Of a stretch of DNA of 64,000 bases, positions 4,518 through 62,421 are shown in pieces. The stretch lies in assembly GCA_029881255.1 (NCBI GenBank), contig JAOUMY010000001.1, forward strand, positions 248,001 to 312,000, in the 5' to 3' direction. This DNA is from Gammaproteobacteria bacterium (GTDB lineage: Bacteria; Pseudomonadota; Gammaproteobacteria; S012-40). Position 1 is the stretch's first letter; every line of letters starts with the position of its first letter. The notes under the pieces are model-generated. The model had not been told where the DNA came from. It saw only the letters and a list, made by a program, of their open reading frames with translations, and ran no database searches. The position numbers and the translations under genes are program-made.

Positions 4518-4999
4518 TGCTGAAGTGGACTTGGATATCGCTGGTCGTGGTGATCCTCGACCAGCTCAGCAAGCTTGCGGCCAGCGCCAACCTGCAAATG
4601 TTTCGACCGGTTGAGGTGATCCCGTTTTTCAATCTCACGCTGGCGCACAATCCTGGCGCGGCGTTTAGTTTTCTTGCAGACGCGGGTGGCTGGCAACGCT
4701 GGTTTTTTACTGTACTCGCAGTTGCCATCAGCATTTTATTAATTTTCTGGATACGTTCACTCAAATCTCACGAAGGCAAAATGGCAATAGGCCTTAGCCT
4801 GGTACTTGGTGGTGCGATCGGCAATCTGATTGATCGCCTCGCCTATGGCTACGTCGTCGACTTTCTCGACTTCTATGTTGGTGATTATCACTGGCCGGCA
4901 TTCAATATTGCCGATTCGGCAATCACTATCGGTGCGGGATTTCTCATCGTCATGAGCTTCATCAGTGAACGTAACCGCAAGCCGAGTAGCGAACTGTAA
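4517..4999 (+). CDS. lspA: Lipoprotein signal peptidase (signal peptidase II)
   Basis: Inner-membrane aspartyl protease that cleaves diacylglyceryl-modified prolipoproteins just before the lipid-bearing Cys. The 160 residues contain four hydrophobic segments. The family blocks are present: HNPGAAFSFL (about 44-53), GGAIGNLIDR (98-107), GYVVDFLDFY with D115, and FNIADSAITIG with D133; these two Asp occupy the catalytic-dyad positions. It overlaps the ileS stop by one base and is 2 nt from the next gene. The window encodes at least four lipobox proteins that would be its substrates. Confidence 0.97.
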   Translation: MLKWTWISLVVVILDQLSKLAASANLQMFRPVEVIPFFNLTLAHNPGAAFSFLADAGGWQRWFFTVLAVAISILLIFWIRSLKSHEGKMAIGLSLVLGGAIGNLIDRLAYGYVVDFLDFYVGDYHWPAFNIADSAITIGAGFLIVMSFISERNRKPSSEL

Positions 5000-5001
5000 C
5001 A

Positions 5002-5988
5002 ATGACCACAAGAGTTCATGTCGTTGCCGCAGTTATTACTGATGAACGCGGCAACATCTTCATCGCCAAACGTCCAGCAGACAAGCACCAGGGCGGTTTA
5101 TGGGAATTCCCGGGCGGCAAGCGTGAAGCGGACGAGACACCACTCGACGCATTAAAACGCGAATTGCACGAAGAGATCGGCATTGATGTTATCGACGCAC
5201 GCCCATTGATTCAGATTAACCACGACTACCCCGACAAGTCTGTTTTACTCGATACCTGGAAAGTGACAGAATTTTCCGGCGAGGCCCACGGCAAGGAAGG
5301 TCAGGAAACTAGCTGGGTGCGTCCCGATGCACTCGACAACTACCCCTTTCCTGCTGCCAACCAGCCTATTATCACGGCGGCACAATTACCCGATAGCTAT
5401 GCAGTTACGCCTGAACCCCGCGATGAAGACAGTTTTTACCGTCAACTGGAAGGACAGTTGCGCGACGGTATTCGCCTCATCCAGTTGCGTATCAAGGAAC
5501 GATCAGAACAACATATCAGACGTATCATCGATAATGTCCAAACGCTCGCAGATGCCTATCGCGCGCGTGTCATGCTCAATACCTATTTACCTGTTAACGA
5601 GGTATTTGGTAGCGCCGGGCGTCATTTGAATACACAGCAACTTTTATCACTTGAGCAAAGACCGATTTCTGAAAAATTTTTGCTTTCCGCTTCCTGTCAC
5701 TCATCCGCAGAATTACAACATGCGCTGACAATAGGTGTCGACTTTATCGTGATTTCACCGGTGCTACGTACCAGCAGTCATCCCGAAGCAACACCGCTGG
5801 GATGGGAAAAGCTTAAAAGTCTGTGTGAGGAATCCACAGTGCCAGCATATGCGCTTGGCGGTATGGAAAAGGCGTTTTTAAACCAGGCGTTTTCTCACGG
5901 CGCACAAGGCATCGCTGGAATATCTACTTTTTTTACAAGTAAAAATATAACGCGGAATGCGAATCCCTCCGCATCCCGCGCTGATTGA
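5002..5988 (+). CDS. Nudix hydrolase (MutT-type) fused to ThiE-like domain
   Basis: Residues 1-130 form a MutT-like Nudix domain. The Nudix box fits GX5EX7REUXEEXGU exactly from G39 to I61 (E45, R53, E54, E57, E58, G60). MutT enzymes hydrolyse 8-oxo-dGTP so that it is not incorporated into DNA. Residues about 145-315 form a TIM-barrel domain of the thiamine-phosphate-synthase/TenI type (blocks IRLIQLRIKE, FIVISPV, ALGGM). This fusion is known in gammaproteobacteria; the role of the second domain there is not settled. The gene starts 2 nt after lspA and so appears to be the third gene of the ileS operon. It ends in an imperfect hairpin-forming stretch. Confidence 0.9.
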   Translation: MTTRVHVVAAVITDERGNIFIAKRPADKHQGGLWEFPGGKREADETPLDALKRELHEEIGIDVIDARPLIQINHDYPDKSVLLDTWKVTEFSGEAHGKEGQETSWVRPDALDNYPFPAANQPIITAAQLPDSYAVTPEPRDEDSFYRQLEGQLRDGIRLIQLRIKERSEQHIRRIIDNVQTLADAYRARVMLNTYLPVNEVFGSAGRHLNTQQLLSLEQRPISEKFLLSASCHSSAELQHALTIGVDFIVISPVLRTSSHPEATPLGWEKLKSLCEESTVPAYALGGMEKAFLNQAFSHGAQGIAGISTFFTSKNITRNANPSASRAD

Positions 5989-6070
5989 GCCCGTCCCTGG
6001 GCGATTCCGTTTGGAGCTTCCTTGTTAAACTGCATCCTGCAGCTTTTTCTTGTTAGTAACGAATATCAGA

Positions 6071-6114
6071 AGTCGGACACCGGGAGGTGGGGGTTGAGAG
6101 AGGAGTGTCCGACT
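6071..6114. repeat. Inverted repeat, 10-bp arms around a purine-rich loop
   Basis: AGTCGGACAC at 6071-6080 is the exact reverse complement of GTGTCCGACT at 6105-6114, with a 24-nt, almost purely purine loop (GGGAGG, GGGGG, GAGAGAGG). It lies between two convergent genes. No T-run follows either arm, so it is not a textbook intrinsic terminator; it could still end transcription from both sides or be a dispersed palindromic element. Confidence 0.6.
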
Positions 6115-6127
6115 CCTAATAATTCGT

Positions 6128-6598
6128 TTAAAACCTGGCCCCCGCAACTTCTCCAGTGGCCCACTCAGGTTTGCGAGGAATAAATCTGCGGAAAAATCGA
6201 ATCAGTGCTAGCACAAAACCGTTGGCTCCGCCCGGTCCGTATGGCACATAGGCGTGCATACGACTGATTTTTCCATCCTGCAACTCCACTACAAACACCT
6301 GAGAAAAATTCATTTTCTGCCCTGTCTTCATAACGTGTGAAGTGTTGATCTCGACAGCACCTTTGTTTGCATCTTGTGAAACAAAGACCTGCTCGACTGT
6401 GAAACCAAACTTCTTGATTCCGCCAAAGGCCCACTTCAAACCACAACTAATCTCGTACTTTCCTTTCATTTTTGGCATGGGATAATGAGGATCGTACAAC
6501 TCAGCTTCCTCGCCAAAGTATCCCATCAGGCTCTCCAGGTCCTTACTGTGAATCGCCTCAATCATTCCATTCATTACCTGTTGAAACTGTGTCGTCAT
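6128..6598 (-). CDS. NTF2-like / SnoaL-type small protein
   Basis: The 156-residue protein has the pattern of the NTF2-like (SnoaL/ketosteroid-isomerase) superfamily: a first helix MIEAIHSKDLESLMGYF, then EEAELYDPHYP, a sheet with VFVVELQDGKISRMHAYVPYG, and a short C-terminal tail. Such proteins bind or isomerise small hydrophobic ligands; the substrate cannot be read from sequence. I chose the ATG at 6598 because AAGGAAAG lies just upstream, rather than an in-frame start 37 codons earlier. It stands alone, convergent with the Nudix fusion. The fold assignment is likely; the function is unknown. Confidence 0.75.
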   Translation of the reverse strand: MTTQFQQVMNGMIEAIHSKDLESLMGYFGEEAELYDPHYPMPKMKGKYEISCGLKWAFGGIKKFGFTVEQVFVSQDANKGAVEINTSHVMKTGQKMNFSQVFVVELQDGKISRMHAYVPYGPGGANGFVLALIRFFRRFIPRKPEWATGEVAGARF

Positions 6599-6771
6599 GT
6601 CGCTTTCCTTTTCGCTGCACAACATGTCTCTGTTGCAAATAATAATACGGTTAACACCCCGTTCACTGAAGTGAGATAGTTCACATCGATGGCGTGGTAT
6701 TTTGCACAATAAGTGGGTGGGGTAAATTATTTGTAAAAATAATCTATTCGACGTATCAGGAGGATCGATCC

Positions 6772-6801
6772 ATGTCGAAAGGTGTCAGCATGAAGAAATA
6801 G
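6772..6801 (+). CDS. Possible 9-codon mini-ORF with ideal ribosome-binding site
   Basis: ATG at 6772 opens a reading frame of nine codons (MSKGVSMKK) ending in TAG. AGGAGG at 6758-6763 lies 8 nt upstream, an ideal Shine-Dalgarno arrangement that is hard to explain by chance in an otherwise gene-free stretch. It may be the surviving start of a small lysine-rich protein cut short by a stop codon, or a leader peptide of the lipoprotein gene that begins about 195 nt downstream. No function can be assigned. Confidence 0.3.
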   Translation: MSKGVSMKK

Positions 6802-6995
6802 CACTAAAGTAGTAGCAGCCCGTGTCAGTATCTTGCAACCCAGGCGAGCTAGCCTTGGCAAGACAAAATATTAGGTTAATTGGGGTTGTATGTAATACGA
6901 TACTTGCAAAGGAATCCAGGCATACTTAACAACGAACCGCCTGGACCTCCCAAGAAACGAAAATAGTTTTTTTCATAAAATAAAAGGGATACAGG

Positions 6996-9323
6996 ATGAA
7001 AATAGCGTCTTCCACATTTATTCTTTTAATTGTTCTTTTACTTATTGGTTGTGGTGGTGGGGCAAACACATACACAGAAATTTCGGGACGCATCTCCAAA
7101 GGCGTCATCAGCAAGGCCAAAGTCTCGGCATATTCTCTAAACGAGGAAGGCAAGAAAACACTTCTCGGCACCACCCACTCCGATAATTCCGGCCGCTATA
7201 AGATTAGATTAACTGGCTCTCATCTTCAGCCTATCCTGCTTCAAGCCAGCGCTGATACTGACACAAAGATGAAGTGTGATACTCAGATTGGTTGTAAAGC
7301 TACCGACGATAGCGATATTGCTTTTGGCGAGGACCTTATTCTTGATGAGAAATTTGAACTTGAGGCGATCATACCTATTCTACAAATTGGTGAGGACAAC
7401 TTTTCCAATATTAATTTCTACACTCACCTCGCCAGCAAACTAGCGATACAGCGAATTGAACAACAGACAGAAAAGTTTAACGCTCTATCCGTTGCCAAGG
7501 CCAACTCCAAGATCAGTGATCTTTTACAAGACCTGAATATCATCGGTATATCTGACGATGCACATACAATTGAGTTGGTAGATGTAGCAAACAAACAGGA
7601 AATATCAAACGCGATTGAAAATGAGAAGGATAGTCAAGTGTTATTTGGCGTGTTACAGGCTTCGACTGCACGCTTAATAACACAACAATTACCCGACACA
7701 AAACTTTATAGCGAAACCATAAGTGGCTTCTCTAAAACCTATATTGATAACAATGGTGAGCTAAAACTATACAGCAAGACCGCAAGCTTTTCGGTTCAAG
7801 CATTACTGGAAGGCATGCGCGAAGAACTTAAAGGTATAGAAGGCTTTCACCAAGACCTGGTTTTTTCACCATATCTTCAAAAAATCGAGTCTGAACTCGA
7901 TGAACTAAATATCGATACCGATAAGAAACCGGAGAAAGAAAAATCTGAAAAGAAGAAGGAAGAAGCGACACCTGATAGTTCTGAAACTGGACCGGATCAG
8001 CCCGGACCACAGCCGGAACCAGAACCAGAACCAGAACCAGAACCTGTCGATGATGATAATGACGAACAAGTCGACGAAAGTGCGACAACAAAAACCGGCT
8101 TCTACTCTGAAATAGAAAAACTCTTGTTTAATGAAATCGATTCCGGTAAACGCCTGATCACTTCATTACGCACAATGGGGCACACGATAGACGAAAATAG
8201 TGCGCTGCTAGGCAAGAAACTTCTAAACAGCATGGGTGGGGAGATCAACGTAGAGCAAGTCACTGATGACTTTCTTGGCTATGTCGATATTGCCAAAACC
8301 CTATATCCCAAAGTTGGCGGTGTGGTTCTGGCCATGATCAAGATGGGTGAAGCCGAGTCTGATCTCGTGTATGACCTTGCCCTCGACAAAGACAACTACC
8401 TGCCCGAGGGCCTGGACATCAGCGGTACGGTGACAGCCACAACCAAATGGGGCTCGCGTTATCTGGTGTTAAACAATGGTTTTATCGAAGGTCTTGGCCA
8501 GGTCGAGCTGGAGGTCAGAGCCTGGAGATATTACTACTGTTACTACTGCTATAATTCCGAACGCGTCAGCATCAACTTAAAGGTGAGCGGCGAATACGGC
8601 AGCATATCCATGCGCACCTGGGGAGCAGACCTTGATCGTAGCTGGAGCTGGGCACAACAAACCTATATCCCCCGCGCCTTGAATATTAGTGATGCGGATA
8701 TAGAGGTAACACTACACAAAGCAGGCGCCAAGGACAGCTTGCGTATCAACAATGCGGGTATGGATTTACGCCTGCGTTGGCCTTACGGTGGCAGCACGAT
8801 TTTACCAACCGTAGATTATGTTGCCGTCGACGGTTATTTCTATAACTATGACTACGACAATGCGATTAGCTCTTTCAGAGGTCGCCTGTCGTATAACAAT
8901 AATAGTTGGATGAACTATTCCAACGATCCAGTGCAATGGGCAAAGCACCATGCAAACTACTTTAGCGTTAACGCCAGTTTTAATGCCTATCTGCGTGTAC
9001 CGGATCCAAACAGACCCAGCTATACACAGTACAAGAGTGTGAAAGTTGAAGCCGGACTACAGAAGAACTCCTGGCGCGGCCTGGTAAAGTCGATGTCTAT
9101 TCGTTACGACAACGAATACTTTTCATTTGAACATCAGGACGGCTCCTCTCAAATCAATATTGCTAACCGAGCAGGTGCGATGGTCGAGGCAATATTGGAT
9201 CCGGATGCGAAGGAGTTGATACTCGGCAATATCACGGTTAAAGGAAAACAGGTTGCCAGTATTGAGAACACGGAGCTTGGCCCGATCATTCGATATGCGG
9301 ATGGAACGATAGAGAGTTTTTAG
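6996..9323 (+). CDS. Large putative lipoprotein with Pro-Glu spacer
   Basis: A 775-residue protein with a short signal peptide and a lipobox ending LLIGC, so C19 would be lipidated after LspA cleavage. Residues about 28-75 look like a beta-sandwich carboxypeptidase-regulatory or Big-type domain (ISGRISKGVISKAKVSAYSL, then SDNSGRYKIRL). Residues about 80-310 are mostly helical. A charged, repetitive linker (EKSEKKKEEAT, then PEPEPEPEP) at about 310-355 separates a second half rich in Tyr, Trp and beta-strand patterns. I do not recognise a family. It is probably attached to the outer membrane. A strong intrinsic terminator about 95 nt downstream ends its unit. Confidence 0.85.
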   Translation: MKIASSTFILLIVLLLIGCGGGANTYTEISGRISKGVISKAKVSAYSLNEEGKKTLLGTTHSDNSGRYKIRLTGSHLQPILLQASADTDTKMKCDTQIGCKATDDSDIAFGEDLILDEKFELEAIIPILQIGEDNFSNINFYTHLASKLAIQRIEQQTEKFNALSVAKANSKISDLLQDLNIIGISDDAHTIELVDVANKQEISNAIENEKDSQVLFGVLQASTARLITQQLPDTKLYSETISGFSKTYIDNNGELKLYSKTASFSVQALLEGMREELKGIEGFHQDLVFSPYLQKIESELDELNIDTDKKPEKEKSEKKKEEATPDSSETGPDQPGPQPEPEPEPEPEPVDDDNDEQVDESATTKTGFYSEIEKLLFNEIDSGKRLITSLRTMGHTIDENSALLGKKLLNSMGGEINVEQVTDDFLGYVDIAKTLYPKVGGVVLAMIKMGEAESDLVYDLALDKDNYLPEGLDISGTVTATTKWGSRYLVLNNGFIEGLGQVELEVRAWRYYYCYYCYNSERVSINLKVSGEYGSISMRTWGADLDRSWSWAQQTYIPRALNISDADIEVTLHKAGAKDSLRINNAGMDLRLRWPYGGSTILPTVDYVAVDGYFYNYDYDNAISSFRGRLSYNNNSWMNYSNDPVQWAKHHANYFSVNASFNAYLRVPDPNRPSYTQYKSVKVEAGLQKNSWRGLVKSMSIRYDNEYFSFEHQDGSSQINIANRAGAMVEAILDPDAKELILGNITVKGKQVASIENTELGPIIRYADGTIESF

Positions 9324-27863: not shown

Positions 27864-30251
27864 TTAGGCTGAATTCTTCCAGCGTTTTAACAATAAAGAA
27901 TTTGTTACCACCGATACCGACGACATCGCCATCGCTGCACCGGCGATTACCGGATTCAACATACCCAACGCGGCCAAAGGTATACCCAAAATGTTATAGA
28001 TAAATGCAAAGAACAAATTCTGACGTATCTTGCCCAGGGTTGCGCGGGACAAGCTAATTGCGTCGACCACGCCATTGAGATCATTGCGCATCAGTGTGAC
28101 ATCGGCGGCTTCTATGGCGACATCAGAACCAGCACCGATCGCAAAACTAACGTCGGCCGCGGCCAAAGCTGGTGCGTCGTTGACACCGTCGCCGACCATT
28201 GCAACCCGTTTACCCTCGCTGCGAAAACTCTGTACCGCCGAGGCTTTATCCTGTGGTTTCACATTCGCCGAAAAGTGTTTGATACCCGCTTCATTGGCAA
28301 CCGCACGCGCGGTGTTTTCGTTATCACCGGTCAACATCACGATATCAACATTTAAGGCATGCAAGCGTTGAACAGCTTTTAACGAGCTTTCGCGTAATTT
28401 GTCTGCAATCGCTAATAGTCCCAGACTTTCCTGTCCACGGCTCAACACCACCACCGTCTTGCCTTGCTGTTGCAGCGCGACTAGTTGCGTATCGTCCAAG
28501 GTGATTCCTTGTTCTTTCGCACCATTGGGGGAACACAACCAGTATTGTTCGCCAGCGACTTCGCCAGACACACCAACACCGGCGTGTGCCTGAAAGTTTT
28601 CTACCCGTTCAACAGCGATTGATTTGTCTTTTGCGTAGGCCAATACGGCGCGCGCGAGTGGATGTTCGGAGCCTTGCTCCAGCGCCGCGGCAATCGACAG
28701 CACTGAATCAGGACTACTCGTTGGCGATGCCCAGATATCTGTCACACGCGGTTTGCCCTCGGTAAGCGTACCGGTCTTATCGACGATAACCGTGTTCACA
28801 TGCTCTGCCAACTCCAGGGCCTGCGCATTCTTCACCAACACGCCGACCTGTGCGCCACGACCGGTTCCGACCATAATCGCTGTGGGCGTTGCCAAGCCCA
28901 GCGCGCACGGACAGGCAATCACTAACACCGCGACCGCATTGATTAAGGCCTGGGTAAACTCACCAACAATCGCCCAGTTTAAAATAAAGGTCAGTACCGC
29001 CACGGCGACAACGACCGGAACAAACACTGCGGCGATCTGATCCGCCAGGCGTTGTATTGGTGCCTTTGAACCTTGCGCCTGTTCGACCAGACGAATAATG
29101 CCGGCCAATTGGGTATGCTTGCCGACACCGATGGCGCGACACTGCAATTGCCCTTGTTGATTCATAGTCCCGGCAAACACATGATCACCGCTTTGCTTGG
29201 AAACAGGCATGCTTTCACCGGTCAACATCGATTCATTAATACTCGACGAGCCATCGATGACTTCACCATCGACCGGCACGTTTTCACCGGCGCGCACCAC
29301 AAACACATCACCGATGACGATATCGCTGACATTGACTTCAACAATTTCACCATCGCGTAACAGGCGCGCAGTTTTCGGTTGCAGTTTGATTAAGGCCTCA
29401 ATCGCTGCCGAGGTTTTTCGTTTGGCGCGCGATTCGAGTATCTTACCGAGCAGTATCAAAGTGATGATCGCGGCGCTGGCCTCAAAATAGACATGTTCAT
29501 GAATACCCGCGATAGTGACGACGGCGCTAAACAGATAGGCCATGGAGGTTCCCAGGGCCACCAACACATCCATATTCGCGCTACCACCACGTAGCGAGTG
29601 CCACGCACCAACGTAAAAGCGTTTACCTATCCAGAACTGCACCGGTGTCGCCAGGGCCATTTGCCACCATGGCGAAAACAATTCATGAGCAGTACCGACA
29701 AACATGAAAACCATTTGCAGCATAAAGGGCGCGGTGAGAACTGCAGAAGCAATAAACAAGCGAAACTCTTTTTTCGCATCCGCTTCTTTCCGTTCCTTGT
29801 CCGCTTGCTGCGTGTCGTCTTCGCGCACAAAGGCCTGATAGCCGGCGCGCTGCACACCGGCAATAATTTCTTCCACGCTTACCAGGGGCATGTAATGCAC
29901 TGTGGCCTGCTCGGTGGCAAAGTTCACCGTCGCTTCGACACCGGGTATACGGTTCAACACCTTCTCGATACGCGCCGCACACGCCGCGCAGGTCATACCA
30001 TCAATCGCGAGTTGCACCTGTCGCGTCGGCACCTGAAAACCCGCGCCACGTATCGCCTCGACAAATTCATCGGGTTGTACTGTGGTGGGATCGTATTCAA
30101 AACGCGCGGTTTCCGAAGCGAAATTAACCGTCGCATCGGTACCTGGGACACGGTTCAAGACCTTTTCCAGTCTTGTTGCGCAAGACGCGCAGGTCATGCC
30201 TTCGATAGGCAGTTCGAGGATATTCGGTATTTGTTGTAGGTTAGCAGTCAT
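27864..30251 (-). CDS. copA: Cu(I)-exporting P1B-type ATPase
   Basis: A 795-residue inner-membrane copper pump. Two N-terminal HMA domains have CASC (21-24) and CAAC (88-91). Eight hydrophobic segments surround the actuator TGES (344-347), the channel CPC (447-449) and the phosphorylation motif DKTGT (491-495). The P1B-specific SEHPLARAV and the hinge GDGVNDAPAL are intact. It exports Cu(I) from the cytoplasm. The ATG follows ATAAGG; transcription starts in a promoter whose spacer holds a CsoR-type dyad. A related but degenerate pump is encoded at 60-62.4 kb. Confidence 0.97.
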   Translation of the reverse strand: MTANLQQIPNILELPIEGMTCASCATRLEKVLNRVPGTDATVNFASETARFEYDPTTVQPDEFVEAIRGAGFQVPTRQVQLAIDGMTCAACAARIEKVLNRIPGVEATVNFATEQATVHYMPLVSVEEIIAGVQRAGYQAFVREDDTQQADKERKEADAKKEFRLFIASAVLTAPFMLQMVFMFVGTAHELFSPWWQMALATPVQFWIGKRFYVGAWHSLRGGSANMDVLVALGTSMAYLFSAVVTIAGIHEHVYFEASAAIITLILLGKILESRAKRKTSAAIEALIKLQPKTARLLRDGEIVEVNVSDIVIGDVFVVRAGENVPVDGEVIDGSSSINESMLTGESMPVSKQSGDHVFAGTMNQQGQLQCRAIGVGKHTQLAGIIRLVEQAQGSKAPIQRLADQIAAVFVPVVVAVAVLTFILNWAIVGEFTQALINAVAVLVIACPCALGLATPTAIMVGTGRGAQVGVLVKNAQALELAEHVNTVIVDKTGTLTEGKPRVTDIWASPTSSPDSVLSIAAALEQGSEHPLARAVLAYAKDKSIAVERVENFQAHAGVGVSGEVAGEQYWLCSPNGAKEQGITLDDTQLVALQQQGKTVVVLSRGQESLGLLAIADKLRESSLKAVQRLHALNVDIVMLTGDNENTARAVANEAGIKHFSANVKPQDKASAVQSFRSEGKRVAMVGDGVNDAPALAAADVSFAIGAGSDVAIEAADVTLMRNDLNGVVDAISLSRATLGKIRQNLFFAFIYNILGIPLAALGMLNPVIAGAAMAMSSVSVVTNSLLLKRWKNSA

Positions 30252-30640: not shown

Positions 30641-33600
30641 CTAGTCGAATCGTGACCGCTCCTCATCAATCTCCTCACGCTCGATGTTTTTGTCTAGGTA
30701 CTCAATCTCCGACTCTATCCACCGACTCACTTCACTCTCAAAACCAGCTCCCAACCAACGACGAAATTTGTCTCTTTTCTTTTTTAAATAGCTGCTTGTA
30801 AGCCCCGACCAAGAACCAGAATGAAAATTACAACTGATTCCGCTGTTTACGCCCTCATATTTGCTATATTTCTGAAGAATTATACGTGTTAATTTACCTC
30901 CATTCGAATCGTCGAGTGTCGGTGGTGCTGCATGTGCTATAAGCGCTGCCCGAGACTTAGGGTCTTCATCAATCCACTCAACAATTTGAGATATCGGCAA
31001 TTCTGATATCGCGGCGGTAGAATTACTTTCTTCATTCCTAGAAAGTCCACCTTTAAGCCAATTCAAAATATCACTCCGCCACTGGGGTAAAGTTTCCTCT
31101 AATTGCGTTTTTATAACGTTCCATGCTCCGGATGGATTAGTTCGTACAAGCTCACTTGCAAGTGGTTCTACATAGGAGTCATAACTTAATCTGTAACAAT
31201 CCCCCATTTTATTCAGTAAACATTCGAGAAGTGGTAGCACACGACTATCATCCCACTTGATCAGCTTCTGGCAAACGTTCTTCCAATGATAGCCCTTCAT
31301 AGGATCTCGGCCTTCCTCTCCTGGTATAGACCTTGATAACACGTCAAATACAAATTCCGAACCAATTGGGGATGATCCGTCCAACGGAGTAGAGTCAAGC
31401 AGCTCTATCAACAGTCGAAAAGACTCCTCTGAGCCATCTGCTTTTAGCAAATCAAGTAGTGTTTTAATTCTTTTTTGCGGAACCTTATCGATTGATCTCC
31501 CATACCTTAGCGAATTGAACTGCTGAGACGAAACCCAGTTATTTTCCAATGCGATTAAACACTTCGAAAACAAGGCATCTCTATAATCTGAACTAAGGGT
31601 AATTGTAACCCCCAGCCAAGCAGTATTTTCAACATCAAGAAAATTGTTTATCACAGAGCCATACAACTCTGGATCGACTTTACCTACTTCTGATAGGTAT
31701 CCGTGTAGACAAACTTGGTGTTTTGTTTCTAGTGCTATTTTTATGAGTTCAGGTAGAAGGCATCTATCTGCGTCATATTGCTCTAACTTTTCACCAAAAA
31801 ACCATAACGCGGGCACGCCTTTCTCAGGAGCAAGGAGATGTCTGATCTCACTCAGCTTTTCTGGATATCGTACAATCCGCTTAGCTAATGCACTAACAAG
31901 CAATTTGGATCGATTTTTTGGTTTATTGTGTCTGTCACGAAAATCTTCATCCCACTCCATCCAATCAACGTCAATTACGTAGCGATTAAATCTGCTTACT
32001 AGATCGCGCCTAGTGAACTGGCGCTCAATTAATTGCAACCTCTTCGTTATTTCTGGATGATTATCATCATCCTTGTACGCTCTCCAATTCCAAAAAAACT
32101 TATTCAGTTTTTCCGGCAACATGGCGCTCTCTTTAACAAGAGAATTCATAACTTGGAAAGCTAGCTCTGTACACGGTGGTGTTCTTATTTGCTCTTCAAC
32201 GGCATAGAATAATGTATTACAAACATCTCGACGAAGCCTAGATGGCCAGTTTTTCGTTTCATTGACCAACGCCTGAAAATAGGTGAAGTACGCCTGCCAC
32301 CATTCGCCATAAGTTTCAGGAATCCATAGTTTTGCTCTCTCTTTTAGCCCTTGATACTCCGGTCCAACTGTTCGAAATCCACCACGCGTATCAAGGGCCG
32401 CTTCGACAATTTTAAGCCCAAGTAAACGCTCTACATCACTAGAAGACCGAAGAAGTTGTAGCAGTGCTGAAAGTCGAGTTTCTGGCGTAGACTCTGTTGC
32501 GGCCCATTCTGGACCTATACGAAAAAGCCCTACCAAGGTGCCTGTAGAGTTATTAGAATAATGGGAGTTCTCATTCACAGCTAATCGAATTAACAAATTT
32601 AGCGCTCTAGTCGTATAGGCAGGCCACACCGCAATCTTTTCAAGAGTCCAGACAAAATTTTGTCTGTTTTCACTTAAGCTCAATAAGTCGTCGTTTGTCC
32701 ATTTGCCAATAGTAGCTTCAAGTAGTTTTAATACAGCGCTAGGATTGGCCTCTGCCAGGATGGATAGAAATCGAGATCCTTTTTCAGATTCTAAAAACTC
32801 CTTTTTAGAGAAAATTCCATCTGACTTAAGAATGTCGTTAATAACGTGAGAAGCACTGGCTTCTCCGGCGTACTTAAACATATTCAGAAACCATGCATGC
32901 AGCGACTTAGGCATGTTTAAAAAAGTTTTATTAAAATCAAATCCTCGTCCATAACACTCCCAAAACTGCTTCCATAAGTAAATATGAAGAGCCTTGGGAA
33001 CAAAAAACAGTGTACGACTACCTTGCAATACTCTTCTAGCGCGAAGATTCTTAATTATTTCCTGAAAACGAGCCCAGCCAATTGTGGGGTCAACATTTCT
33101 AACTAACTCGGCGATATAAGCGGCCTCCTCTCCAACTGGTGCCTCATATCCAAAACGATTGAACAACGCAATGTGCTGTGCAACGCACTCAACTTGTCTT
33201 GCACCTATTTCATCTCTCTTTCCATAGCCGTGCAGAAACCTTGTCCAAATCGGTACTGTGGCTGGTGGCTTTAACAAGTCTGACGGGTTTGCGTACAGAT
33301 TGTCGGCAACCGCTTGCGCAACTCGAGGCGATCCTTCGCAGATACTAATCCAACGATCAAGTTCGTGAGATTCCCCAATACGGCGAATAAGTATTTTTTT
33401 TATGATATCGTCTGGCAAGTATGGTACTTGTATTCGATCAATATCTTCATCTCGGGTTTCATCCTGTCCGTGATCCATCGATACAATCTTCAATTGACCG
33501 CAGCGTGGCTTAAGATGTCTCCATATATCTGAAAGCTCCATCTCCGGTAGCTCATCTATAACCAAAATAAGTGGTTTGTCACGACCTGATTTCACTAATT

Positions 33601-34414
33601 GTCGGAAGAGTTTTGTTTGTCCAAACTGAGATCCATGCTGGATGTAAAGAACATGCGGAGAAATAGTTTCAACATTCAATGCCTCTAGAACAATACGAGT
33701 TTTACCTAAACCAGGTTCACCAAGAATACGGATGTGTTTTGCTTCCGCCTGTAGGCCAGATCGCAGCTGAGTGATTATCTCTGTTTGTTCTGAAGACTCC
33801 TCGTAATCGTTTGCCATATGCGCATCATGCTGCCATTCATCGAGTGTCCAGGCTTCCTGAATTGGATCAGCTGATAATAAAGATGCAACTCCTGGATAAC
33901 GTTCTGCAAATTCTGTAATTTGACTTGCACCAAAAACTTCGACTTTGCTTTCATATGCTTCAAACCCTTTTTCAGCCAGAGTTGCGACAATTAATTCTTT
34001 AGAGTTGTTACGTTGCTCTGGAGTCAAGTCATGTCCCGTGCAGATGAGCGAATAACGACCTTGTCGTTCCACAAGCCGCTTAACTTCAGAGTTTAACTCT
34101 CCTTTACTGCTAAGTAATTCTTGTCGAATCGAAGTTAACTTCCAGGGTTTAAATGTGGTTCCTGCTTTTATTTGGAATCCTGTAATACCAAATTGAAAAA
34201 TACAGTCTGCATTCACGTTATGTCCATGAGGCACATTGACTTCAGCATCTATGCCGCCATCTGGGGTCATCAATTTATCAGAAATGGTTAGTGCAGCAGG
34301 CCCTAGCTTTGCGTAGGCGCATTCAGAACGTAGTATTGCTCGAGATATGGAAACAGCGCGTTCAGGGCTAAGTGAAGCGACTGTTAAAATTGGAACTGTC
34401 CATAAACTATTCAT
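30641..34414 (-). CDS. Nuclease-STAND-like NTPase, candidate single-gene defence protein
   Basis: A 1257-residue protein. The N-terminal domain (about 20-170) has PDGGIDAEV (D56) and, 25 residues later, QIK (81-83), the spaced Asp and Gln-x-Lys of Mrr/Cap4-like PD-(D/E)xK nucleases. A P-loop NTPase follows: Walker A GEPGLGKT (232-239) and Walker B LILVIDE (282-288), with arginine-rich motifs about 330-350. The remaining 800 residues look like helical repeats. This nuclease/NTPase/repeat layout is that of Avs-type and other STAND antiphage proteins. The gene is AT-rich compared with its neighbours, lacks a Shine-Dalgarno, has no partners, and lies next to a repeat-scarred tRNA-Arg, all suggesting transfer. 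Confidence 0.85.
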   Translation of the reverse strand: MNSLWTVPILTVASLSPERAVSISRAILRSECAYAKLGPAALTISDKLMTPDGGIDAEVNVPHGHNVNADCIFQFGITGFQIKAGTTFKPWKLTSIRQELLSSKGELNSEVKRLVERQGRYSLICTGHDLTPEQRNNSKELIVATLAEKGFEAYESKVEVFGASQITEFAERYPGVASLLSADPIQEAWTLDEWQHDAHMANDYEESSEQTEIITQLRSGLQAEAKHIRILGEPGLGKTRIVLEALNVETISPHVLYIQHGSQFGQTKLFRQLVKSGRDKPLILVIDELPEMELSDIWRHLKPRCGQLKIVSMDHGQDETRDEDIDRIQVPYLPDDIIKKILIRRIGESHELDRWISICEGSPRVAQAVADNLYANPSDLLKPPATVPIWTRFLHGYGKRDEIGARQVECVAQHIALFNRFGYEAPVGEEAAYIAELVRNVDPTIGWARFQEIIKNLRARRVLQGSRTLFFVPKALHIYLWKQFWECYGRGFDFNKTFLNMPKSLHAWFLNMFKYAGEASASHVINDILKSDGIFSKKEFLESEKGSRFLSILAEANPSAVLKLLEATIGKWTNDDLLSLSENRQNFVWTLEKIAVWPAYTTRALNLLIRLAVNENSHYSNNSTGTLVGLFRIGPEWAATESTPETRLSALLQLLRSSSDVERLLGLKIVEAALDTRGGFRTVGPEYQGLKERAKLWIPETYGEWWQAYFTYFQALVNETKNWPSRLRRDVCNTLFYAVEEQIRTPPCTELAFQVMNSLVKESAMLPEKLNKFFWNWRAYKDDDNHPEITKRLQLIERQFTRRDLVSRFNRYVIDVDWMEWDEDFRDRHNKPKNRSKLLVSALAKRIVRYPEKLSEIRHLLAPEKGVPALWFFGEKLEQYDADRCLLPELIKIALETKHQVCLHGYLSEVGKVDPELYGSVINNFLDVENTAWLGVTITLSSDYRDALFSKCLIALENNWVSSQQFNSLRYGRSIDKVPQKRIKTLLDLLKADGSEESFRLLIELLDSTPLDGSSPIGSEFVFDVLSRSIPGEEGRDPMKGYHWKNVCQKLIKWDDSRVLPLLECLLNKMGDCYRLSYDSYVEPLASELVRTNPSGAWNVIKTQLEETLPQWRSDILNWLKGGLSRNEESNSTAAISELPISQIVEWIDEDPKSRAALIAHAAPPTLDDSNGGKLTRIILQKYSKYEGVNSGISCNFHSGSWSGLTSSYLKKKRDKFRRWLGAGFESEVSRWIESEIEYLDKNIEREEIDEERSRFD

Positions 34415-34839
34415 AAAATATGTATTTATCTATTAGGCCCCAGTATCCGCTTTAGGTCGACAACAGATCCAGCACTAGAAATTCAGAACCATTTCTCTGA
34501 TCGATTCCAAAGAAAACACAGTTACACATTGACGGGGATCGAAACGGCTAGTCCCTTCTTGTTGTTTATTTTTAACCAACATCCCCACAAGAGAGGTTAA
34601 GTGACGGCTTTATTAGCCTAGTTTTTGTGTGTTGAGTTTATACCGACCAGGTGGTTGGTGCAAGGTAAGGGAGAGACTTGGATTTACGATGTATGAGCAG
34701 ACGCTACTTGCTCACGCTGCATGTATCTCAAATTCGTTGGCGTTCTCGTCGAACGAACTACTTAAGCGGTCGGATGTTCGAATCGCGGCTTTGTTAAATA
34801 AAAAAGGGTTCTCCTGGTTTGGAGAACCCTTTTGTTGTA
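34415..34839. repeat. AT-rich flank and diverged copy of the 176-bp repeat
   Basis: 34415-34660 shows no gene and probably holds the promoter of the NTPase gene. From about 34664 the sequence becomes a diverged copy of the repeat unit to its right. GGTCGGATGTTCGAATC (34768-34784) differs by one base from the tRNA-Arg T-arm text repeated 176 nt later. A perfect 13-bp hairpin, AAAAGGGTTCTCC/GGAGAACCCTTTT (34802-34833), follows. Confidence 0.6.
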
Positions 34840-35015
34840 TGGCGCGCCCGAGACGATTACTCGGCTACGCCTCACCCTATCGGGTCGTTGCATTCGCAAC
34901 GATTTCGCTCGCGATGCTCGCTTCTCGAACGGACTGATTGAGCGGTCGGACGTTCGAATCTTGCCTTCGTTAAATGAAAAAGGGTTCTCCTGGTTTGGAG
35001 AACCCTTTTGTTATA
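34840..35015. repeat. 176-bp tandem repeat, copy 1
   Basis: Begins with the 19-nt tRNA-Arg 3' end (34840-34858, CCA through part of the T-loop, minus sense). It then carries GTTGC-ATTC-GCAAC, GGTCGGACGTTCGAATC (34944-34960, tRNA T-arm text in the opposite orientation), and a perfect 13-bp hairpin (34978-35009) with A- and T-runs that could terminate transcription both ways. Confidence 0.9.
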
Positions 35016-35191
35016 TGGCGCGCCCGAGACGATTACTCGGCTACGCCTCACCCTATCGGGTCGTTGCATTCGCAACGATTTCGCTCGCGATGCTCGCTTC
35101 TCGAACGGACTGATTGAGCGGTCGGACGTTCGAATCTTGCCTTCGTTAAATGAAAAAGGGTTCTCCCTTTCAGAAGAACCCTTTTGTAATG
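35016..35191. repeat. 176-bp tandem repeat, copy 2, abutting tRNA-Arg
   Basis: Nearly identical to copy 1 and in exact register: tRNA 3' end at 35016-35034, inverted T-arm text at 35120-35136, hairpin at 35154-35185 with a changed loop side. The next tRNA 3' end, 176 nt on, is the real tRNA-Arg at 35192. Frames within these repeats (MARPRR-type peptides) are not genes. Confidence 0.9.
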
Positions 35192-35268
35192 TGGCGCGCC
35201 CGAGACGATTCGAACGTCCGACCTTTGCCTCCGGAGGGCAACGCTCTATCCAGCTGAGCTACGGGCGC
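35192..35268 (-). tRNA. tRNA-Arg(CCG)
   Basis: A complete 77-nt cloverleaf with encoded CCA: acceptor GCGCCCG/CGGGCGC, D-arm GCTC/GAGC, anticodon arm TTGCC-CTCCGGA-GGCAA giving anticodon CCG, T-arm GGACG-TTCGAAT-CGTCT, discriminator G. Its 3' end is repeated twice downstream at 176-bp intervals, so it looks like a used integration site. Confidence 0.96.
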
Positions 35269-35386
35269 CTTAACTTTTACCCTGGAGTAGCTAGATACCC
35301 CAGCCCGCACGTCTTTGATCGACGCGTGGTGTGAAAACCGGCATAGCATACCGCGTTGGGTACTTGCAGTCTAATTCCGTCAATTA

Positions 35387-55994: not shown

Positions 55995-58040
55995 TTGCAC
56001 ACAGACAGCCATCCTAAAAGTTTCCAGTGGCAGGGAAAATACCCTGTTTTTTCAGCTATATACATTATAATCTGGCTGATATTGCAGGCATTTACGCCAG
56101 TTTTAGCAGAAGAACAATTCGAAGACTTCGACCACCTTGCCACGGGATTTGATCTCGTCGGACGCCATTTACAGATCAGTTGCGAGTCCTGCCACGTCAA
56201 TCGTATATTTCGCGGCACACCTCGCCTGTGTTCAGGCTGTCACAATGGCCAGATTGCTCAGGCCAAATCACCCAATCATGTACCTACCAAACAGGAATGT
56301 GACAGCTGCCATCAGCCTACTGGGTTTTATGCCTCGGCACGTATGGACCACACGGGTATCGAGACAAACTGCCTGCGCTGTCACAATAGTGTTTTTGCAA
56401 GTGGCAAACATGTCTACCACATACCTGTTAGCGAGGACTGCGAGACCTGCCACGGCATTGGCACCAGTTGGGTGCCTGCGCTCTTTGATCATGTCGGTAT
56501 TTACAACAATTGCCAGCAGTGCCATGACAACCTGCATACCCGCGGCAAACACCCGCAACACATCACCAGCACCACGGCGTGTGAGGCTTGCCACAACCGC
56601 ACAGGCTGGCTGCCTGTGATGAATGTCGATCATCAGGAAGTCATAGGGCAGTGTAATAGCTGTCACAATCACGCGATCGCTGAGGGAATGCCACAAAACC
56701 ATATTCCCACGGTATTGCAATGCAATGCGTGCCACACCGATACCGGAGTCACCTGGCTTATCCAGGCAGGATTCGCAGCTGTCCACGCTGCGCTGACAGG
56801 TGACTGCTCAAGCTGCCACAACGGCCAGTACGCAAGCGGAAAATCGATTAACCATTTGCCGACCACACAGGCATGCGAAGCCTGCCACAGCCCCAGCGCG
56901 CCAGACTTTGCCACCGTAACGAAAGTTGATCACAACGAAGTCACCGCAACCTGCGCAAAATGTCATACCGGTGCGATTGCACCGGGCAAAAACGATACAC
57001 ATATTGCGTCATCGAATCATTGCAGTAGTTGCCACAGCGTGTTCAGTTTCACTAGTGTGAGCCTGGTCGATCACAACGAAGTTCGAGGTTCCTGCGCCAA
57101 CTGTCATGACAATTCAACAGCGCTTGGAAAATCGGCAGGACATATAGCAACTACGGAATCCTGCGATATTTGCCATAGCGTTAGTGGATGGTTGCCCACG
57201 CAATTCAATCACAGCACCATCGGTAATACAGCCTGTCTTTCCTGTCATGACGGCACCAGCGCCCGCGGCAAAGGTGTATTACATGTCAGCAGCAGTGATG
57301 ATTGCCAGATCTGCCATCGTGCCGGCGGTAACTGGAGTGTATTCGCACTTGATCATAACAATCTGTTTGGCACCTGCAGCAGTTGCCACAATAATGTCAG
57401 TGCACGAGGTAAGCATGCGACACATATTCCGACAACAAATGAGTGCAACGATTGTCACAACAGCACCAGCAGTTGGTTAGTCATTACCTTCAATCACCAG
57501 GGTATCGTCAACGGCTGTGATACCTGCCATAACAATGTCAGCCTGGCAGGCAAACCTATTGGCCACATCTCGTCAACCAACCGTTGTGAGGCGTGCCATG
57601 CCACGAATGTCTGGAACCCGGTTTCCACTGTTCAGCACACCGAGATTTTAGGTAATTGCCAGACTTGTCATAACAATGTGATAACCTCCGGAAAATCAGT
57701 CAACCATATTTCCAGTACTGATAATTGCGGCAATTGCCACCAAAATCCGGGAAGCTGGTTAATCGGCCTTAAAGTTGATCACGGGGAAGTGAGAGGCACA
57801 TGTGCCGGTTGCCATCCCAACAAACCGATCACTCATATTGCCACCACCAATCGTTGCGGTAATTGTCACACTTCATTTGGCTGGGTTCCCGCCCTCGCTG
57901 TTGACCACAACGAGGTACTGGGTAGCTGCGAAACCTGTCACAGCCCACCCGGCAGCCATGTCAGCGTCGGTGTCGTAAATAATTGTCAGAACTGCCACTC
58001 GACCGCAAGCTGGCGCAATCCGTCCAGTCGCCTACCTTAA
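55995..58040 (+). CDS. 27-heme c-type cytochrome
   Basis: A 681-residue protein with a signal-like segment (SAIYIIIWLILQAFTPVLA) and 27 CxxCH heme-binding motifs by my count. They fall in about thirteen repeats of about 45 residues: CxxCHNNVxxxGKxxxHIxxTxxCxxCH, then W-x-P and a DH or NH. Extra His residues could serve as second axial ligands. No catalytic domain is seen, so it looks like an electron-carrying wire in the periplasm or at the surface. No ATG precedes the signal; TTG at 55995 is the likely start. It lies between a porin gene and nikR, all in one direction. Confidence 0.93.
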   Translation: MHTDSHPKSFQWQGKYPVFSAIYIIIWLILQAFTPVLAEEQFEDFDHLATGFDLVGRHLQISCESCHVNRIFRGTPRLCSGCHNGQIAQAKSPNHVPTKQECDSCHQPTGFYASARMDHTGIETNCLRCHNSVFASGKHVYHIPVSEDCETCHGIGTSWVPALFDHVGIYNNCQQCHDNLHTRGKHPQHITSTTACEACHNRTGWLPVMNVDHQEVIGQCNSCHNHAIAEGMPQNHIPTVLQCNACHTDTGVTWLIQAGFAAVHAALTGDCSSCHNGQYASGKSINHLPTTQACEACHSPSAPDFATVTKVDHNEVTATCAKCHTGAIAPGKNDTHIASSNHCSSCHSVFSFTSVSLVDHNEVRGSCANCHDNSTALGKSAGHIATTESCDICHSVSGWLPTQFNHSTIGNTACLSCHDGTSARGKGVLHVSSSDDCQICHRAGGNWSVFALDHNNLFGTCSSCHNNVSARGKHATHIPTTNECNDCHNSTSSWLVITFNHQGIVNGCDTCHNNVSLAGKPIGHISSTNRCEACHATNVWNPVSTVQHTEILGNCQTCHNNVITSGKSVNHISSTDNCGNCHQNPGSWLIGLKVDHGEVRGTCAGCHPNKPITHIATTNRCGNCHTSFGWVPALAVDHNEVLGSCETCHSPPGSHVSVGVVNNCQNCHSTASWRNPSSRLP

Positions 58041-59258: not shown

Positions 59259-60125
59259 ATGACCCTGCTCGCAATTATCGCCGCCCTTTTTGGTGAACGT
59301 TTCATTGGTTCAGTACAGGAATTCCGCCAGTTTCAGTGGCTGGCTGATGCAGGTGAGTGGATACGCCGACAGTCATCTGGACTGGATAGCTGGATTGGCG
59401 CAATACTGATTCTGCTCCTCGCAGGCACCATTGTTGAGCTGGCGTACCTGTGGCTGTCAAAAGGATTCATAATACTCGGCTTCGTGGCAGCCACCGCTGT
59501 GCTTTTGTTCTGCATAGGTCCGCGCTCGTTTTATGACCAGATCAAGTCCTTCTGTGATGCTTACAGCAACGGAAACGAAGACAGCGCGTATTGGTATCTC
59601 AGCAATCTCAAAGATTCAGCGCTGACGGATGAAGATGAAAGATATTTGGCCAAGGCGGCGCTTGAGGCCGCGTTCGTTGCAGTTAACAATCGCCTGCTCG
59701 GGGTGATTTTCTGGTTTGTGATACTTGGCCCATTTGGCGCGGTAATCTATCGCATCAGCGGCGACTTTCACAGACTCGAAGAAGAAGGTGATCAACGCTC
59801 TCAACTCTATGCGGCATTTGATCGCATACATTACCTGCTCAATTGGCCGAGCTCACGACTTGTATCCATAAGCTACGCAGCAATGGGCAGTTTCGTCGAA
59901 GGTATGTCTCACTTAAAACGTAGTGCCTCACCTACAAGCAACTGGCCGGACCCCAATGAGCAATTGCTTGTGAGCAGCGGTCTCGGCGCTCTGGACCTGA
60001 AGCAGGAGCAAGCCACCGAGATCGGCTGCGATCAAATATTTAGCGGATTAGCCCTGTTGAGAAGATCCGTTGCCTTCTGGGTGGGGGTAATTGCATTATT
60101 GACTTTGGCTGGTTGGCTGGGTTGA
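59259..60125 (+). CDS. ampE: AmpE-like inner-membrane protein
   Basis: A 288-residue membrane protein: four to five hydrophobic segments, with family patterns LLAIIAALFGERFIG, LLCIGPRSFYDQ-like LFCIGPRSFYDQIKSFCDA, and LGVIFWFVILGPFGAVIYR. AmpE is a companion of AmpD, proposed as a signal transducer in AmpC control; its mechanism is unclear. The last 86 nt overlap the end of the degenerate ATPase gene on the other strand. Confidence 0.93.
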   Translation: MTLLAIIAALFGERFIGSVQEFRQFQWLADAGEWIRRQSSGLDSWIGAILILLLAGTIVELAYLWLSKGFIILGFVAATAVLLFCIGPRSFYDQIKSFCDAYSNGNEDSAYWYLSNLKDSALTDEDERYLAKAALEAAFVAVNNRLLGVIFWFVILGPFGAVIYRISGDFHRLEEEGDQRSQLYAAFDRIHYLLNWPSSRLVSISYAAMGSFVEGMSHLKRSASPTSNWPDPNEQLLVSSGLGALDLKQEQATEIGCDQIFSGLALLRRSVAFWVGVIALLTLAGWLG

Positions 60126-62421
60126 TCCAATGCAACACCCCATGACGGGTAGATGCCAACCACATACAGTAAATAAATAGTAGTTCGCTCAAAATCGTTG
60201 CCCACAGAGGCAAAGCCATTGCCAGTATTGCGCCTATCATTATTAATTTATAACTAAAATAAACAATGGTTAGATTGCGCAATTGCATAAGCGTTTTGCT
60301 GCTTACCGTCACCGACTCAGGCAGCAGCTCCAGACTATCTCCCAGTATGCCCACGTCGCTCACTTCATACACTTTGTTTCGTTGAAGTGCTCTTACACAA
60401 AACTTGAGCAATCCTTCGCTGAGTAAAACAGACTCGCGTGAACTGACGACCGCACTGAAACGACGATTGTCTTCATGCGCTAATATTTGAGACTTATCAC
60501 TTTGGGACAAATCTGCTTTAACCGAATCAAACCCCATGCGATAAGCAAGCTTTCCAGAGGAAATTTCATTATCTTCCGTCAGCAAAATCAAGCGTTCGAC
60601 ATTCAATGCGTGCAGCCCGTCCACGGAAAGCGCAATATCATTTTGCAACGGATCAACAACATTAAACATACCAATGATGTTGTGCTTATTAGCGAGAAAC
60701 AAAACATCAACGCCATCTTGTTGCCAGCGTTCGAGTCGGTCGTTAATGGTTTGCGTTACCAGACCATTTTCCTTCATCAGTCGAAAGGTACCGAATAAGT
60801 ATTGCTCTCCACCTAACACACCAGCGAAGCCCTGCTCACCATACTGTTTCAGATCCTCAACTGCTTGACGCGACAACTGCTCATTTCTAGCTCTCTGAAC
60901 AACCGCTCTAAAATAATCGTGTGCATTTCTTGGCACCAGGCTACGTGCAGTTTGCAATAGAGACTTAACAGATTCACCACTAAGTGAAATCACTTCCTCA
61001 ACGTGAGCAGCACCCTGTGTAATCACGCCCTGCTTGTCAAAATATAACTTCCTAAGATTTGCCAGACGGGAAAAATGCACGCCTTGCTTTACTAATACGC
61101 CACGTTCGGCCAGATAGATCAGCGTTAACAGCGCCCGCCCCTGAATAGTGCTGGTGATTGCAGCTGGACCACTGATTAACAACAAGGCAAGTGCAACAGA
61201 CACCGAGTATCCTGTATTCAACGCGGGTGAATAAATGGCCCAAAGTAAAGCTAAACCGGCACAAAAACACGCAGCAGAAAAAACGATTGCCACTTTACGG
61301 ATGCGTTCCAATTCAGGAAAAACAGAATTAACCGATTGATGAAAACCTTGCAAAAAAACTGACCAGCGACTGTCTTGCTGCGAGCTGGTAACACTCACTT
61401 GAACTTCGCCCTCTAGTAAACGCCAACCAGCATAAACTTTGTCGCCTTTGCTCAGTCTTCCCGAAATTCTCTCCAGCTTGTTAAAACCTCGAAAGCTGGC
61501 GCTGCCCGTTGTGATCTCACCGTCCACCGCCACATACTCTCCAGCTTTTACAAGTAACGTCTGACCTGGCTGAACGTTTGAGGAACACTCACAAACAGTT
61601 TTTTCATTGTCTAACAAATAAGCATTCGCAGGGAGTCGCTGACGCAGGGCAAATATACGCGTTCTAATGTAGCGAAAGAATTGACGCTCAAAAAATGCTG
61701 CGCTGGAAAACATCGTTACCACCAGCGCCGATTCAAACCACATATGATAAAAATTGGCGATCATGGTCAACAACAAAATCACACTGGCGTGATTCACTTT
61801 TCGTTTATGAAATGCGCCTATCACACCATCTTCAAGCAGAGGCCAAATACCTGCAAGTATGGCAATAAAAAACGGTACGATCGCCCATGACTGCCACACA
61901 GAGGTCAAACTGTCCAGAACACAACCCATTAGTAACATCAGCGCCGCCACTACGGCACAATAATCCCGCAGGTTTCGCAATCGTTCCTTGACGACTCTGT
62001 TCTGCAGACGTGATGCAATATTGTGTTTATCGAGAGCACACACAAAACTGGAAGGGTTAACGCTGCTATCGTGCAAAATGCGCAAGTGCCCGCTGGCAAC
62101 ATCGAGGAAGAAGTTTCGCAAACCCGGCTGATTGCTCATGATCTTTTGGATGACTGCGCGTGTTTTCGCATCGATATCTGCAATGATGTCGAGATCAGCC
62201 TGAAATACACCTTGCTCTATCAACACCCTAATACCCTGTCTTTGAACAAATGTTATTAGAGCCGACTCATAATAGGAATCTTTCGCATTTGCAATTAAGG
62301 TTGCATCTACAAAATCCACCACAATCGAGTCGTCGCCAAATTCTTGGCGCAACTGTTTTTCAAGATTCGCCGCCTTACGTGGCGTAGTAAGTCCATCAAG
62401 TTCCAACACTAATTGCTGCAT
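60040..62421 (-). CDS. Degenerate P1B-type ATPase-like membrane protein
   Basis: A 793-residue protein with the topology of a copper-type P1B pump (about eight hydrophobic segments, actuator and P-domain positions) but without its chemistry. The N-terminal 70 residues resemble an HMA fold without CxxC. TGE is replaced by SGR (320-322), CPC by SGP (417-419), DKTGT by DKQGV (462-466, Asp kept), HP by HD (501-502), TGDN by TEDN (615-618), and GDGxNDxP is missing. The frame is intact throughout, so it is probably maintained as a non-pumping protein. The 3' end overlaps ampE. No neighbouring metal gene explains it. Confidence 0.82.
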   Translation of the reverse strand: MQQLVLELDGLTTPRKAANLEKQLRQEFGDDSIVVDFVDATLIANAKDSYYESALITFVQRQGIRVLIEQGVFQADLDIIADIDAKTRAVIQKIMSNQPGLRNFFLDVASGHLRILHDSSVNPSSFVCALDKHNIASRLQNRVVKERLRNLRDYCAVVAALMLLMGCVLDSLTSVWQSWAIVPFFIAILAGIWPLLEDGVIGAFHKRKVNHASVILLLTMIANFYHMWFESALVVTMFSSAAFFERQFFRYIRTRIFALRQRLPANAYLLDNEKTVCECSSNVQPGQTLLVKAGEYVAVDGEITTGSASFRGFNKLERISGRLSKGDKVYAGWRLLEGEVQVSVTSSQQDSRWSVFLQGFHQSVNSVFPELERIRKVAIVFSAACFCAGLALLWAIYSPALNTGYSVSVALALLLISGPAAITSTIQGRALLTLIYLAERGVLVKQGVHFSRLANLRKLYFDKQGVITQGAAHVEEVISLSGESVKSLLQTARSLVPRNAHDYFRAVVQRARNEQLSRQAVEDLKQYGEQGFAGVLGGEQYLFGTFRLMKENGLVTQTINDRLERWQQDGVDVLFLANKHNIIGMFNVVDPLQNDIALSVDGLHALNVERLILLTEDNEISSGKLAYRMGFDSVKADLSQSDKSQILAHEDNRRFSAVVSSRESVLLSEGLLKFCVRALQRNKVYEVSDVGILGDSLELLPESVTVSSKTLMQLRNLTIVYFSYKLIMIGAILAMALPLWATILSELLFIYCMWLASTRHGVLHWINPANQPKSIMQLPPPRRQRIFSTGLIR

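Follow-up and report, generated by a model that had tools for sequence, protein, structure and literature searches.

A PD-λ-4_A-related protein with a predicted nuclease and a STAND-like NTPase as a candidate single-gene antiphage defence in a gammaproteobacterial genome

What is the large, AT-rich gene that lies beside a tRNA-Arg in this gammaproteobacterial contig, and is it part of a known defence system? The initial annotation of the window (the whole 64,000-nucleotide stretch analysed) had put it forward as a candidate for an undescribed antiphage system. The ORF, which begins with ATG and is uninterrupted by stops, is intact:

30641..34414, minus strand: whole gene, predicted PD-Lambda-4_A-like STAND-type nuclease, 1257 aa (PADLOC PDLC03991, E = 1.5e-38, residues 29-991)

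On one side the ORF is flanked by a copper-type P-ATPase gene (27864-30251) and on the other by tRNA-Arg(CCG), after which comes a rep/uvrD-like helicase gene; no partner gene directly adjoins it, as had been noted at the outset. The remark that the gene is AT-rich also held: its GC content is 42.3% and its GC3 35%, against 45-54% and 45-65%, respectively, for the other window genes measured. Within the host order the gene occurs in one of 13 genomes, the 12 others being without a homologue, and within the host class in 14 of 369 sampled genomes. The low GC content and this patchy occurrence are compatible with horizontal arrival of the gene. DNA-level similarity to the nearest relatives stops at the ORF limits, so that the mobile unit looks like one gene.

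The neighbouring tRNA-Arg had been described as scarred; the adjacency is as stated, but the tRNA itself is undamaged and sits beside repeat units:

35192..35268, minus strand: tRNA-Arg(CCG), intact, adjoining the gene; context outside the system
34749..35276, no strand assigned: 176-bp repeat units with the tRNA 3' end (from repeat comparison); context

The tandem units (100%, 94% and 62%), the last of which overlaps tRNA-Arg(CCG) itself, contain 19 nt that match the 3' end of tRNA-Arg, together with a hairpin resembling a terminator and an inverted piece of the T-arm. Elsewhere in the same genome, near a tRNA-Arg(CCT), there is a diverged copy of the unit (78%; G000:C6:86167-86293, L041). 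Neither a paired attachment site nor a repeat on both sides of the ORF was found, so tRNA-targeted integration is not established. The rep-tRNA-Arg adjacency is present in related genomes too, and with no repeat flanking both sides of the ORF a tRNA-borne integrative element is unsupported.

The PADLOC match (130 bits over residues 29-991 of 1257) places the protein in a family that is already known, so the epithet ‘undescribed’ has to be given up. All 11 members of the first alignment matched the PD-Lambda-4_A model, the nearest with E = 0. Pfam gave no family above cut-off for the window protein, and NCBIfam and PHROGs gave nothing significant. PD-λ-4 is one of 21 systems obtained by functional selection for defence in E. 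coli (Vassallo et al. 2022, PMC9519451), and a review that cites this work lists it in a domain table under P-loop NTPase only (PMC10952713); the literature searched yielded no paper on its mechanism. The window protein resembles PD-λ-4_A in its near full-length homology, its equal length, its DGG-D/QxK and Walker residues, and the mobile settings of the genes, but is only about 18% identical to the E. coli protein of locus L050 (13-19% across domains). A midpoint-rooted maximum-likelihood tree has two deep groups, each with 100/100 support. One comprises the window clade, a clade bearing a helix-turn-helix (HTH) domain (L030-L033), L034, and two plasmid proteins, one cyanobacterial and one haloarchaeal; the other comprises E. 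coli PD-λ-4_A and its kin, together with L049, whose long branch is unsurely placed there.

The second component of the system, PD-Lambda-4_B (PDLC03992), was found neither in the window's genome nor in ten other genomes with A-like genes. Among all loci compared, B adjoins A only in L050, a proviral E. coli contig with the A+B pair (B at E = 2.2e-164) and an Arm-DNA-binding phage-type integrase nearby; DNA of this pair is found in 158 of 5426 complete E. coli genomes, 131 of which have at least 80% of its length. Because B is missing and the two deep groups of the tree separate the window clade from E. coli A, the window protein counts as a relative of PD-λ-4_A, and its locus does not constitute a PD-λ-4 system. 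The L050 element also encodes, between the integrase and PD-λ-4, a 1248-aa protein (3703-7449, minus strand) with no PADLOC match, which is itself a candidate defence gene.

The N-terminal part of the protein contains the following features:

33860..34414, minus strand: residues 1-185, predicted PD-(D/E)XK nuclease effector domain (invariant D56, Q81 and K83, near-invariant E31; weak DUF4365 matches; hhalign 95.9%)
34247..34261, minus strand: D52-G-G-I-D56 motif (translation and alignment)
34166..34174, minus strand: Q81-I-K83 motif (translation and alignment)

The PDGGID and QIK motifs had been picked out at the N-terminus from the start; their residue numbers are correct, and their conservation shows that they did not arise by chance. 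In an alignment of 24 sequences that reaches down to ~18% identity and spans the two deep clades, D52, G54, D56, Q81, K83 and E99 are identical throughout, as are R229, G232, G235, G237, K238, T239, R240, D287 and G361 of the following region; E31 is kept in 22. Judged by this conservation (24/24 for D56 and Q81xK83), E31-D56-Q81xK83 looks like a PD-(D/E)XK site. Comparison by hhalign with the N-termini of restriction-endonuclease/nSTAND3 proteins gave 95.9% for the domain, and a PDB profile search with the nuclease part gave no significant relative. DUF4365 matched the N-terminal domains of four of 20 family members weakly (best E 0.0083), and the window protein had no match to it (Pfam PF14280) at E up to 5. 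DUF4365 identity was rejected by hhalign, which was negative (about 5%) in a comparison with two DUF4365 sequences only. In a short-Argonaute system the predicted active-site residues of DUF4365 are Q62/K64, and the activated complex degrades DNA non-specifically (PMC10810196). That nuclease (SPARDA-type) is similar in being of PD-(D/E)XK type with a QxK motif and in its weak profile match to some relatives of the window protein, but its activator is a guide-RNA Argonaute rather than a STAND NTPase.

A P-loop region and a linker follow the nuclease domain:

33275..33847, minus strand: residues 190-380, predicted P-loop (STAND/AAA-like) NTPase (conservation, PDB profiles, hhalign)
33698..33721, minus strand: Walker A G232EPGLGKT239, then invariant R240 (translation and alignment)
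33551..33571, minus strand: Walker B, residues 282-288, ending in D287-E288 (translation and alignment)
33323..33334, minus strand: G361-S-P-R364, at the position of the STAND GxP/GLPL motif, a tentative assignment by eye from alignments
32960..33274, minus strand: residues 381-485, putative winged-helix linker with invariant P473 and L480 (conservation; fold predicted)

The Walker motifs, too, lie where they had been placed (K238 in Walker A; VID287E in Walker B), with the key residues invariant in 24/24. The GSPR sequence at 361-364 is conserved within the window-side group; the sister group has GNAR. Is the NTPase of the STAND class? Against restriction-endonuclease/nSTAND3 proteins, a profile of the first 500 residues scored 97.9% probability (E 4e-13) over residues 10-255; a profile of the whole family scored 96.8% over residues 11-506. 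In these alignments the DGG-D, Q-x-K and Walker A motifs line up with their counterparts. The nSTAND3 side of the comparison consisted of nine proteins (~770 aa, L086-L094), from the strong loci only, kept from a genome search that at E 0.001 was promiscuous through general P-loops. Controls scored 0.2-1.2% (reversed sequence) and 2-3.5% (a UvrD-like, unrelated P-loop family). A layout of nuclease plus STAND-like NTPase is thus supported at the level of profile comparison, by 97.9% against 0.2% for the reversed control. The nSTAND3 proteins share this collinear N-terminal nuclease and P-loop but are shorter, and their C-terminal arm is without detectable similarity (1.7%).

PDB profile matches to the NTPase were each weak (E 0.02-0.4) and included STAND chains, plant NLRs among them (NRC3, NRC1, a TIR-NLR NADase, archaeal PH0952 and MLA13); AAA+ chains (ClpC, RFC, DnaC) scored about equally to STAND chains, and a search with the window-side group's NTPase alone reached E of 0.2 or worse. 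Because these matches mix STAND with AAA+ chains, we label the domain ‘STAND-like’ and not proven STAND. The predicted organisation recalls that of Avs (AVAST) proteins, which are likewise single-gene systems with an N-terminal effector, a STAND NTPase and a long helical C-terminus; the motifs, the nSTAND3-type profile match and the helical periodicity of the window protein would fit such a layout. Avs5 carries nSTAND3 with a Sir2 effector (PMC12931631). Avs membership was nevertheless rejected, no PADLOC Avs model having matched the window protein up to E = 10.

The remainder of the protein is a single feature:

30644..32959, minus strand: residues 486-1257, helical, fastest-evolving, putative sensor (periodicity, divergence)

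The helical character that the initial annotation gave to about 800 residues held up: across the C-terminal ~770 residues, 54% of windows have an alpha-helical periodicity peak, compared with 28% (sd 4) for shuffled columns. No known repeat family matched this region, and a PDB profile search with it found no significant relative and no recognisable DNA-binding domain. Against its closest relative, a prophage gene with 74% identity, the window gene has pN 0.147, pS 0.675 and dN/dS about 0.09, and is thus, on this comparison, under purifying selection. Region by region, pN runs from 0.09 in the NTPase, the minimum, to a maximum of 0.20 in the last 357 residues; in comparisons with three other relatives, for which synonymous sites are saturated, the NTPase was again the most conserved part and the last 357 residues the least. 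This fast divergence fits a sensor role for the C-terminus but does not prove it.

The pattern of divergence also bears on a different mode of action, in which the protein would act directly on incoming phage or plasmid DNA like an ATP-dependent restriction enzyme: the C-terminus would recognise DNA ends or DNA that is foreign or modified, the nuclease would cut the bound DNA, and the cell would survive. We regard this as unlikely, since the region that would have to bind DNA lacks a recognised DNA-binding domain and, as the part that diverges fastest, is more like a sensor of a protein ligand; a recognisable HTH is confined to the L030-L033 clade. On the other side, many relatives are plasmid-borne, and some lie in or near restriction loci: L035 has type I RM-like genes and a YgjP gene upstream, and L034 lies between a DNA methylase-HNH gene and a GmrSD/HEC-06 gene.

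Selection is equally relevant to the missing B gene. The protein could be an orphaned PD-λ-4_A that has lost B and is inactive, or merely decaying cargo, and both the absence of B from the eleven genomes searched and its confinement to L050 are what such a history would leave. This reading is very improbable, however: the protein has the full length of its clade (1257-1258 aa), keeps all catalytic residues, and has the low dN/dS given above. Moreover, the whole window clade and most of the sister clade are without B, so that its absence is the norm. Should B be indispensable, the protein by itself might function differently from PD-λ-4.

The settings of relatives include a prophage, an integrative conjugative element and many plasmids. 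The nearest relatives (62-74% identical) come from a prophage contig, Competibacteraceae, Thiobacillaceae and Acidobacteria MAGs, Alcaligenaceae and a genome of the same class; the closest (L043) lies in its prophage between tail hub (gpD)/minor-tail genes and an NsnC (Menshen) gene. Others adjoin a SoFic Fic gene (L029), Gabija and a P4-type integrase (L054), or the PADLOC candidate PDC-S31 (L055); one is close to the terminus of an element that encodes a relaxase, TrbL and an integrase (L005), and one, on a cyanobacterial plasmid, adjoins a Fic fragment, a helicase and a methyltransferase (L116). Lone relatives among housekeeping genes, e.g., a 65% relative inserted between gatA and gatB on the same strand (L003 620-4396), neither support nor exclude defence. 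The initial annotation had held that family members in conserved non-defence settings would speak against its reading; locus by locus, the surroundings differ and contain many mobile and defence genes, and their lack of conservation argues against a housekeeping role. No relatives were found in the phage collection, nor was a viral-contig relative of the HTH clade. In L030-L033 the nuclease-NTPase protein has an HTH_37 domain fused to its N-terminus, which points to autoregulation or to DNA binding.

STAND proteins include regulators. The gene might accordingly encode a STAND-type protein with a role outside defence, e.g., in the regulation of transcription or stress responses or as a selfish addiction module, and the N-terminal HTH_37 of the sister clade could be read in that sense. 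Given the conserved nuclease site, the patchy distribution in order and class, the mobile settings and the homology to a tested defence component, we consider this very improbable, marginally more so than an inactive orphan.

The best explanation, which we consider likely on the evidence of sequence comparison, is that the gene by itself encodes an antiphage, nuclease-based member of the PD-λ-4_A family, built on the plan of STAND immune proteins. The nuclease/NTPase/helical layout, single-gene state and likely antiphage role proposed initially are supported by the PADLOC match, the motifs, hhalign, the helical periodicity and the relatives' neighbourhoods. By analogy with the STAND class, the C-terminal helical array would keep the protein inactive in the absence of a product from an infecting phage; binding of this trigger would free the central NTPase for ATP binding and self-assembly. 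Assembly would join the N-terminal PD-(D/E)XK domains (E31/D56/Q81xK83), which could then cleave DNA largely irrespective of sequence; phage replication would stop and the cell would probably die or be arrested, making the outcome probably abortive. What supports each of these steps is homology and motif conservation.

New here are the clade itself, which appears to be a distant sister of E. coli A and to occur without B, and a family that can be read as STAND-type nucleases. A broader proposal, for and against which we see the balance as even, is that this clade is a B-independent single-gene STAND-nuclease system, sister to PD-λ-4 and with its own phage trigger, in Pseudomonadota, Acidobacteriota, cyanobacteria and haloarchaea, and that E. 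coli PD-λ-4_A is an Avs-like STAND nuclease that recruited B as an accessory. Viewing component A as a nuclease with a STAND-type switch and a sensor arm gives specific mutants to test, and work on the clade without B would tell if A suffices for defence. Such a reading would enlarge the group of STAND immune proteins with a nuclease that bacteria and archaea have in common.

Two other genes of the window deserve mention. One (60040-62421, minus strand) encodes a protein like heavy-metal P-type ATPases with the phosphorylation motif FDKQGVITQG, not DKTGT, and is possibly an inactive transporter; the other (55995-58040, plus strand) encodes a 681-aa protein with many CxxCH-like motifs, a probable multihaem cytochrome.
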